Assembly: GCF_025399835.1 (NCBI RefSeq) | Contig: NZ_JAODVR010000001.1 | Coordinates: forward strand, 1,674,001-1,738,000 | DNA from: Haloarchaeobius sp. HME9146 | Lineage (GTDB): Archaea; Halobacteriota; Halobacteria; Halobacteriales; Natrialbaceae | DNA length: 64,000 nt | Direction: 5' to 3' | Shown: piece by piece, positions 22,028 through 23,111 of the stretch | How the letters are laid out: the number at the start of each line of letters is the position of its first letter | Numbering within the stretch: position 1 is the first letter of the stretch | Notes under the pieces: generated by a model | Database searches by the model: none | Told to the model about the DNA's origin: nothing | What the model saw: only the letters and a program-made list of their open reading frames with translations | Translations under genes and position numbers: made by a program

Positions 22028-22080
22028 GTCAGGGCCAGAACGGGGGCGTTGACTTTCGGTTCTCGCCGGTGTTCGAGGAT

Positions 22081-22203
22081 GGCGGGAGGTAGATTTGAAC
22101 TACCTCACTCCGCTCCGCTTCGTCCGTGAGTTCAATCTACCGTGACCGACTTCGCGACTCATGGACTCGTCGCTTCGCTCCTCGTCGTTGTTCGTCGCAA
22201 TAG
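22081..22203 (-). repeat. tRNA-iMet 3'-end-derived double-hairpin unit 1
   Basis: This 123-nt unit is the second of two downstream of the initiator tRNA at 22344-22418 (minus strand). It opens with a copy of the tRNA T-arm/acceptor end (22081-22100). An inverted, slightly decayed copy (GTTCAATCTACC) follows near 22131-22142, so the pair can fold into a long hairpin with CTCAC/GTGAG inside. A second, weaker hairpin (TTCGCGAC...GTCGCAATAG) abuts the next copy. It is nearly identical to unit 4 at 22913-23036. No protein is encoded: overlapping ORFs are by-products. Confidence 0.7.
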
Positions 22204-22343
22204 TAGCGGGAGGTAGATTTGAACCTCGCCCGAGAACCTGTGCTTCGCACAGAACCTCGGTCTGGTTCAAACTACCACAGTTCTATTTTCAGAATTCAGG
22301 GTTCGTTCGACTACGTCTCACTCACCAATTGAATTCTGAAAAA
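22204..22343 (-). repeat. tRNA-iMet 3'-end-derived double-hairpin unit 2
   Basis: This 140-nt unit lies directly after the initiator tRNA gene at 22344-22418 on the minus strand. A 21-nt exact copy of the tRNA 3' end occupies 22204-22224. Its partner GGTTCAAACTACC lies near 22272-22284, with an inner stem GAACCTGTGC/GCACAGAACC. Next to the tRNA is a near-perfect 16-nt inverted repeat (CTATTTTCAGAATTCA...TGAATTCTGAAAAATAG), well placed to act as a transcript-end hairpin. Confidence 0.75.
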
Positions 22344-22418
22344 TAGCGGGAGGTAGATTTGAACTACCGATCTGCGGGTTATGAGCCCGCCGGAATCTCC
22401 TGGCTATCCCATCCCGCT
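22344..22418 (-). tRNA. Initiator tRNA-Met (CAU), copy 1
   Basis: The 75-nt minus-strand gene folds as a full cloverleaf without intron: acceptor AGCGGGA/TCCCGCT with discriminator A, anticodon loop CTCATAA in a GCGGG/CCCGC stem, and T-arm GTAG-TTCAAAT-CTAC. The three G:C pairs of the anticodon stem and the A1:U72 pair mark it as the initiator. CCA is not encoded. The 10 nt immediately upstream (ATGCAGAAGT on the minus strand) are shared with copy 2, and CCCTTATCC further upstream is a possible TATA element. Confidence 0.95.
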
Positions 22419-22510
22419 ACTTCTGCATATTCCCGTCCCACGGATAAGGGTTATGAGTTGGAGGTCGATTCCGCCAGCGACATTCGTGAGGGTTCGAGGC
22501 CAGCCGTGGG

Positions 22511-22681
22511 CTACTCGACAGCGTACACCTCCACCCATAGGTAGACGATACCGATGGTGGAGTAGAGGAGACCGAACCCGGTCGGGACCCACTCGCTCTG
22601 ACTCGCGAAGAGAGCTGCCTGGACGATGCCGAGGAGTACCATCGCCAGCCCGAGCATCGTCTTCAGGCGGTGGCGTTCCAT
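22511..22681 (-). CDS. 56-residue two-span membrane protein between the two tRNA genes
   Basis: The ORF starts at ATG 22681 (MERHRLKTMLG) and contains two hydrophobic spans (MLGLAMVLLGIVQAALF and TGFGLLYSTIGIVYLWVEV). GC-rich third codon positions support coding; an extension further upstream would run into the tRNA-derived repeat and is rejected. It resembles small haloarchaeal membrane proteins but I cannot name a family. It lies on the same strand as both initiator tRNA genes. Confidence 0.55.
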   Translation of the reverse strand: MERHRLKTMLGLAMVLLGIVQAALFASQSEWVPTGFGLLYSTIGIVYLWVEVYAVE

Positions 22682-22737
22682 GTGGCTCTCTTCGGTCGGT
22701 TCGGTGAAAAATCTCGGGCTGTTGGTCTGGGTCTGTG

Positions 22738-22912
22738 GCAGGAGGTAGATTTGAACCTCACTCGCTTCGCTCACGGTTTCACCGTTCGCGTCGCGGTTCT
22801 CGCTACGCTCCGAACCGCGCACCGCTCGCTGGTTCAAACGACCACAGTTCTATTTCGCCGAACTCGCGACTCGCTCGCCTACGTCTCGCTCGTCGATTGA
22901 GTTCGGCAGAAA
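22738..22912 (-). repeat. tRNA-iMet 3'-end-derived double-hairpin unit 3
   Basis: This 175-nt unit is second downstream of the initiator tRNA at 23037-23111. The T-arm copy (22743-22757) is intact but its acceptor end has decayed (GCAGGAGG). The inverted partner GGTTCAAACGACC lies near 22832-22844, with an inner stem CGCGGTTC/GAACCGCG. A 16-nt inverted repeat CTATTTCGCCGAACTC/GAGTTCGGCAGAAATAG ends at the next tRNA copy. The stretch ACCACAGTTCTATTT is shared with unit 2. Confidence 0.7.
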
Positions 22913-23036
22913 TAGCGGGAGGTAGATTTGAACTACCTCACTCCGCTCCGCTTCGTTCGTGAGTTCAATCTACCGTGACCGACTTTGCGACTCATGGACT
23001 CGTCGCTTCGCTCCTCGCCGTTGTTCGTCGCAAAAG
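22913..23036 (-). repeat. tRNA-iMet 3'-end-derived double-hairpin unit 4
   Basis: This 124-nt unit abuts the initiator tRNA at 23037-23111. It starts with an exact 21-nt copy of the tRNA 3' end (22913-22933), has the inverted copy GTTCAATCTACC near 22963, and ends in the hairpin CTTTGCGAC...GTCGCAAAAG next to the tRNA. It differs from unit 1 at only a handful of positions, so one was copied from the other or both from a common source. Confidence 0.75.
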
Positions 23037-23111
23037 TAGCGGGAGGTAGATTTGAACTACCGATCTGCGGGTTATGAGCCCGCCGGAATCTCCTGGCTAT
23101 CCCATCCCGCT
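23037..23111 (-). tRNA. Initiator tRNA-Met (CAU), copy 2
   Basis: Sequence-identical to the copy at 22344-22418: same cloverleaf, anticodon CAU, GGG:CCC anticodon stem and A1:U72 pair, no intron and no encoded CCA. The upstream minus-strand sequence TTATGCAGAAGT resembles that of copy 1, and CCCTTAACTAG about 30 nt upstream may be the TATA box. Confidence 0.95.

Follow-up and report, generated by a model that had tools for sequence, protein, structure and literature searches.

The cassettes of integrons (attI x attC, IntI) form polar tandem arrays beside a fixed site, turn over as whole units and contain a folded, strand-specific hairpin with unpaired bases. Integrative elements that target tRNA genes through integrases of the SNJ2, pNOB8 or SSV type show a direct repeat of the tRNA 3' end. 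The 3' ends of tRNA genes are the usual integration sites in archaea, and att sites of the SNJ2 type are reported to comprise, at their shortest, just the acceptor end (PMC8371274). Short non-coding palindromic repeats that are probably ssDNA-based are also known, namely the PATEs of Haloquadratum walsbyi, which have near-terminal palindromes (PMC3119063), IS605-type elements and the bacterial REP/BIME. MITEs are short and non-autonomous. The double-hairpin elements and t-elements of mitochondria combine two hairpins with tRNA-like sequence.

Here, we describe units that follow tRNA genes in haloarchaea. With integron cassettes they share the whole-unit turnover and apparently also the polar array and the strand-specific hairpin, whose unpaired bases would be a bulged G in CAGG/CCGTGG and single-base T-loop insertions in about 30 copies. 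Unlike these cassettes, the units are archaeal, contain no gene and have no linked integrase; the tRNA 3' end serves as their site, and every unit fits its own tRNA. Like tRNA-targeting integrative elements, they repeat the tRNA 3' end in direct orientation, and their exchange region fits the short acceptor-end att core of such elements, but they are ~120 nt long and gene-free, contain an internal inverted copy of the T-arm and form arrays at many tRNAs at once. PATEs, IS605-type elements and REP/BIME, in contrast, are not tRNA-specific, use a target of 4-6 bp and depend on a Y1 transposase, which is absent from the genome studied here. Unlike MITEs, the units have neither terminal inverted repeats nor a short target-site duplication, and no parent transposon was found. 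The mitochondrial elements differ in not being adapted to the neighbouring tRNA and belong to another organism and compartment. No description of such units was found in the open-access literature (an earlier one in a subscription paper is possible), and by their appearance they are a so far undescribed haloarchaeal family of insertion cassettes adapted to tRNAs.

Two initiator tRNA genes are each followed by two units

The window is the whole 64,000-nt stretch of the Haloarchaeobius sp. HME9146 genome that was analysed. ARAGORN and Rfam RF00005 both place two tRNA-iMet(CAT) genes in it, at 22343-22419 (gene 1) and 23036-23111 (gene 2); in the layout given below, the genes are taken as 22344..22418 and 23037..23111. 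As both genes are on the minus strand, the units, which are given below on the same strand, lie downstream of them. After each gene there are two units, as an earlier note on this DNA had stated; they are ~120-180 nt long. Read in the tRNA sense, a unit consists of a hairpin (H2), an inverted arm (b'), a hairpin core and a direct copy (b) of tRNA positions 52-73. The b copy is the 3' arm of the second hairpin of the unit, and b', complementary to the T-arm, is its 5' arm. H2 starts directly after position 73, so that the second hairpin reported to abut the tRNA end was found again.

Gene 1 is adjoined by unit 2 (type B', 22204..22342). Its H2 hairpin (22284..22342, TTTTCAGAATTCA/TGAATTCTGAAAA) adjoins the tRNA gene and was recovered both as inverted repeat I6 and in the folds; b' (22264..22276) is an inverted T-arm copy reading GGTAGTTTGAACC on the minus strand, and b (22204..22225) is a direct copy of positions 52-73. 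The distal unit 1 (type A, 22080..22203) has its H2 at 22150..22203, as seen in the fold, b' at 22130..22141 and b, with a slightly decayed acceptor end, at 22080..22101. Gene 2 is adjoined by unit 4 (type A', 22913..23035), with H2 at 22982..23034 in the folds, b' at 22963..22974 and a direct copy of positions 52-73 as b at 22913..22934. The distal unit 3 (type B, 22736..22912) has H2 at 22850..22912 in the fold, b' with one decayed base at 22831..22843 and b with a decayed acceptor at 22736..22757; its core (22758..22830) is a long hairpin module that elsewhere in the same genome occurs only at units of tRNA-Gly, -Lys and -Asn. The four extra copies of the tRNA-iMet 3' end noticed earlier are present at the coordinates given then, each with an inverted partner.

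Units 1 and 4, noted before as nearly identical, agree at 116 of 119 nt (97%). Units 2 and 3 are indeed related; they have a common layout and a partly common sequence (repeat families D4 and D5). The folding of unit 2 exceeded that of shuffled sequences with z = -6.6 as DNA and z = -7.9 as RNA; the DNA fold of unit 4 by itself was not significant against shuffles (z = -1.1). Between the two iMet arrays, a minus-strand ORF of ~56 aa (22511-22681) encodes a small membrane protein, for which no relative was found among the viral contigs searched.

The units occur at many tRNA genes throughout the Halobacteria

A search of the same genome with segments of the window led to three further places, each just after a tRNA gene, Gly(GCC), Lys(CTT) or Asn(GTT), and with b equal to the 3' end of the respective tRNA. 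The scan proposed earlier, of tRNA genes for downstream copies of their own 3' ends, was performed on unbiased samples at a score of at least 11 and gave 28/51 genes in this genome and 21/42 and 15/41 in two congeners. The units are therefore broader than first seen and not specific to the initiator tRNA. In a pooled set of 294 tRNAs, queried with 22 nt and including loci that had been fetched by unit sequence, 146 genes had a downstream self-copy at a score of at least 16. At the same threshold, the 3' end of another tRNA was found at 0/294 and upstream matches at 7/288, at least in part because of adjacent tRNAs and their units. Among non-halophilic archaeal tRNAs of the phylum, a self-copy was present in 0/32.

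A 17-base pattern at the border of b' and the core was found in 79/194 Halobacteria genomes, while the reversed control gave zero in every genome. The exact-pattern search across 84,980 species returned 75 stretches, haloarchaeal by title except for one titled only Euryarchaeota, and 72 of the 81 exact matches sit 31-383 nt 3' of a tRNA on the same strand. Matches to a covariance model built on the second hairpin were obtained in 110/116 Halobacteria genomes, with a tRNA directly upstream of 28 of the 30 best loci. No unit was found in the viruses, phages and plasmids searched. Nineteen viral-contig matches to the short pattern were rejected as virus-borne units; they have no tRNA upstream, several are the antisense of tRNA genes, and they look like chance.

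Anatomy of the units

Most units are 90-180 nt long, and they carry neither genes nor an integrase. The b copies start at tRNA position 52, with b' and the core upstream of them, and an inverted arm b' was found in 185 of 219 units, compared to 2 when shuffled. The inverted pairs are internal and not terminal, and the border repeat is the 22-nt tRNA copy. As in an integrative element, the tRNA is restored and the direct repeat of its 3' end stands at the border. Conserved hairpin signatures, CAGGGAGC...GCGACCGTGG and GAAC...GTGAG with tandem GA, recur at many tRNAs and in many genera and are absent from the tRNA itself. Neither random placement of the copies nor their origin from decaying tandem tRNA genes that lack a shared layout, both named earlier as refutations, was borne out: both layout and position are conserved.

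In the T-loop of b, independent single-base insertions or changes were seen in ~30 of 219 units (e.g., L002, L003, L022), the acceptor part being exact; GGTTCACAATC, GTTCATAATC and GGTTCAACATC are examples of such variants.

Both hairpin arms follow the tRNA that the unit adjoins

The b copies are identical to their own tRNA at 94-99% of positions 53-70, and b' is complementary to it at about 52-65 and 72-73 but not at 66-71. Where a tRNA deviates from the commonest isoacceptor sequence, b has the letter of its own tRNA in 108 cases and the common letter in 8; for b', the counts are 61 and 7. Both arms therefore track the host tRNA. H2 hairpins are alike chiefly when they belong to the same tRNA type (8.3% of pairs versus 0.15%). 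Meanwhile, cores are shared between different tRNAs: 50/50 nt are identical between Leu(TAA) of the window's genome and Glu(TTC) of the congener G196, the Gly, Val and Arg units of G194 have an identical core stretch of 27-28 nt, and six congeners yielded six occurrences of one core module, all of them at a tRNA unit.

Another possibility would be that the copies are scars or decoys of tRNA-targeting mobile elements, that is, leftover or sacrificial attachment sites. The general use of tRNA 3' ends for integration in archaea (PMC8371274) and the arrays beyond attR-like fragments described below agree with this, but neither the tracking of the host tRNA by b' nor the conservation of H2, b' and core between copies is explained by it, and we consider it improbable.

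Predicted folds of the tRNA-sense strand have DNA-type loops

The folds of 185 units contained 111 GNA triloops and 8 GNRA loops on the tRNA-sense strand, the antisense strand being the sole control for these loop-type counts. The H2 loops were GNA (42), GNYA (34), GNAB (14) and GNRA (5). C-GNA-G triloops together with GNYA and GNAB loops thus greatly exceed GNRA. Among the two-by-two internal loops, almost every one was of the GA/GA type on the tRNA-sense strand (271). The single (1x1) mismatches of H2 comprised 7 G-T and 12 A-C, so that the excess of G-U expected of a conserved RNA is missing. GNA triloops are unusually stable in DNA. Stability in DNA is also reported for GNNA and GNAB loops (PMC8373063). 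Taken together, the DNA-stable loops, the tandem G.A on the sense strand and the lack of a G.U preference disfavour a function as RNA, and the sense strand probably folds as DNA.

The earlier note had left two interpretations side by side, a non-autonomous element that duplicates the tRNA 3' end it targets and a tRNA-mimicking trailer that matters for RNase Z or termination. The first one fits what was seen across the class: units are placed at tRNA ends, with their start directly behind position 73 and a copy of 52-73 as their end, and congeners differ by entire units. More generally, the units could act as RNA, either as structured tRNA trailers or as processing, termination or antisense elements of the transcript. 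The strong RNA fold of unit 2, the fixed orientation on the tRNA strand, the T-rich start of the trailer, the paired stem changes of the iMet H2 and the antisense relation of b' to the T-arm are consistent with this. Nevertheless, only about half of the tRNA genes have a unit, with presence and absence varying between congeners, and this turnover is fast. The b copy lacks the 5' strand of the T-stem and pairs with the inverted arm, forming no T-arm; the loops and mismatches are those given above, and after Ala, Arg(CCG) and Gly(CCC) tRNAs the hairpins have the reverse sense. Apart from tRNA, nothing scored above the gathering threshold in Rfam, which offers no close family. A role as RNA therefore appears decidedly unlikely.

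Units are gained or lost as a whole beside the tRNA

Comparison of related genomes, also suggested before, revealed that orthologous tRNAs of congeners differ by whole units adjoining the tRNA. At tRNA-Thr(CGT), the genome of the window carries one unit more than G196, and this unit lies precisely between the tRNA and the counterpart of the first G196 unit; at tRNA-Val(GAC), the situation is reversed and the extra unit is on the G196 side. Units are also shared between paralogous tRNAs. The iMet loci of G196 have a single unit each, type B after one gene and type A after the other, while the arrays of the window are A'-B and B'-A; each iMet gene thus seems to have gained the unit of the other one proximally. 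Distal copies are more diverged (19.0 versus 17.5 in pairs; 21.3, 20.4 and 18.4 in triples). Gain adjoining the tRNA is the simplest reading of the extra proximal units, but proximal units may instead have been lost elsewhere, or the b repeats may have exchanged by ordinary homologous recombination.

The latter leads to the strongest rival of our reading, homologous recombination combined with template switching. According to it, no dedicated enzyme is involved: the units are palindromic repeats that perpetuate themselves through template switching at hairpins and are reassorted in polyploid cells when b repeats recombine homologously, the complementarity of the arms and the paired changes resulting from quasi-palindrome correction and not from selection. 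Direct repeats of at least 22 nt are prone to recombine when a strong hairpin lies beside them, the exchange seen between the iMet loci of the window can be depicted as a crossover at b, and tandem identical units exist (e.g., L342). The creation and maintenance of hairpins and the homogenisation of the arms of inverted repeats are reported for template switching (PMC8794818, PMC8604942). However, local copying cannot be the source of the signatures that recur at many tRNAs and in many genera, as the tRNA does not contain them, and the exact pattern is restricted to the haloarchaeal titles, and the one Euryarchaeota title, mentioned above. We regard this explanation as possible, though on the unlikely side.

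A tentative model of recombination in the acceptor half

Our preferred reading, held tentatively and with somewhat less than even confidence, is that the units are non-coding cassettes, probably folded as ssDNA, that target tRNA genes and join them by recombination. A unit would join the tRNA by exchange in the acceptor half, at about positions 61-73. Joining at this place would keep the tRNA intact and turn the copy into the far border. Repeated joining would build tandem arrays in which the newest unit probably adjoins the tRNA, as for cassettes at integron attI. The active form would probably be the tRNA-sense strand folded as single-stranded DNA, and the enzyme may be a tyrosine recombinase.

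The T-loop insertions are confined to distal copies and the tRNAs are intact, which places the exchange point 3' of the T-loop. The nine exact-pattern matches without an upstream tRNA appear, by eye, to follow a tRNA 3'-end fragment; the fragments are mostly beside foreign DNA, and several begin at about position 60-62. Arrays after such a fragment, partly with integrase-like foreign sequence, are seen in L136:1600-2000, L140:6500-6830, L120:7600-7950, L158, L145 and L167. They look like the attR ends of integrated elements that displaced a unit array from its tRNA. Given the exchange point 3' of the T-loop, the fragments from ~60-62 and the short SNJ2-type att sites, exchange by a tyrosine recombinase in the acceptor half is the most economical model. 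Tyrosine recombinases were present in 12/12 genomes tested; integrases occur alike in genomes with and without units, and none is linked to units.

As the complementarity of b' is missing at 66-71, no complete duplex version of the att site arises. A full dumbbell or inverted triplication with a continuous duplex (b a L a' b' C b) was rejected, the match of b' to the tRNA being limited to 52-65 and 72-73; real units folded as circles were hardly better than those with swapped b, which weakens it further. Many genomes of the family retain the iMet H2 and show paired changes within the stem, and this persistence, which a purely transient element does not need, speaks against the preferred cassette reading, as do the incomplete att duplex, the lack of a linked recombinase and the negative searches of viruses, phages and plasmids.

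Transposition of IS200/IS605, RAYT or PATE-like type, in which an HUH Y1 transposase acts on ssDNA with two near-terminal palindromes, would suit the two hairpins per unit and the DNA-type loops, and PATEs with near-terminal palindromes are known from Haloquadratum (PMC3119063). On the other hand, searches for Y1_Tnp gave 0 in the genome of the window, G078 and G030, all of which are rich in units, and Y1 occurs in four genomes without covariance-model matches. A target identity of 22 nt is not known as a feature of Y1. This candidate is thus largely refuted, unless Y1 acts in trans from elsewhere, and we think it extremely improbable.

Taken a step further, the cassette reading would make the units an archaeal counterpart of integrons, with tRNA genes as attI and gene-free, ssDNA-folded cassettes that are captured by tRNA-targeting tyrosine recombinases and have both hairpin arms re-copied from the host tRNA. 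If the arms are re-copied in this manner, one element family can colonise many tRNA genes. We put this extension forward as unlikely in its full form.

The units form a repeat family that spans the class, is restricted to one lineage, occupies an essential set of genes and is matched to each tRNA touched. They would account for the hairpin clutter 3' of haloarchaeal tRNA genes and bear on the origin of tRNA 3' ends as integration hot spots. They also offer a natural archaeal system for testing ssDNA-hairpin recombination or the templated evolution of palindromes, and the need of every unit to fit its own tRNA supplies many natural variants for testing the rules.

Related hairpins and atypical tRNA clusters

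A GA-type mini-hairpin was tried as a diagnostic mark of the units and rejected: the genome contains 12 copies of GAGCGNAGCGAGC, of which about 4-5 lie at tRNA units, and its reversed control is equally frequent. The diagnostic part of a unit is the T-arm plus the core. A pair of GA/GNA-type hairpins is also present near base 1500 of L316 (G000:C1:602093), a place without a recognised tRNA unit, and hairpins of this style are thus not limited to such units. Near base 1500 of L324 (G000:C1:3039138), a unit-like hairpin pair ends in GTTCGGAGCCCGCCCCGGCCA, and no tRNA was recognised upstream of it, perhaps because the gene contains an intron or has been lost.

A second type of unit copies the acceptor end alone and has its GA/GNA hairpins on the antisense strand. 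On G000:C1, it follows tRNA-Ala(CGC) (L017), Ala(GGC) (L016), Arg(CCG) (L021), Arg(GCG) (L047) and Gly(CCC) (L006). Finally, tight clusters of atypical tRNA genes, several of them low scoring, were seen on a secondary replicon or contig at G000:C2:577166-578673, G194:C2:919782-925779 and G196:C3:597472-598996, and they are probably located on a mobile element.
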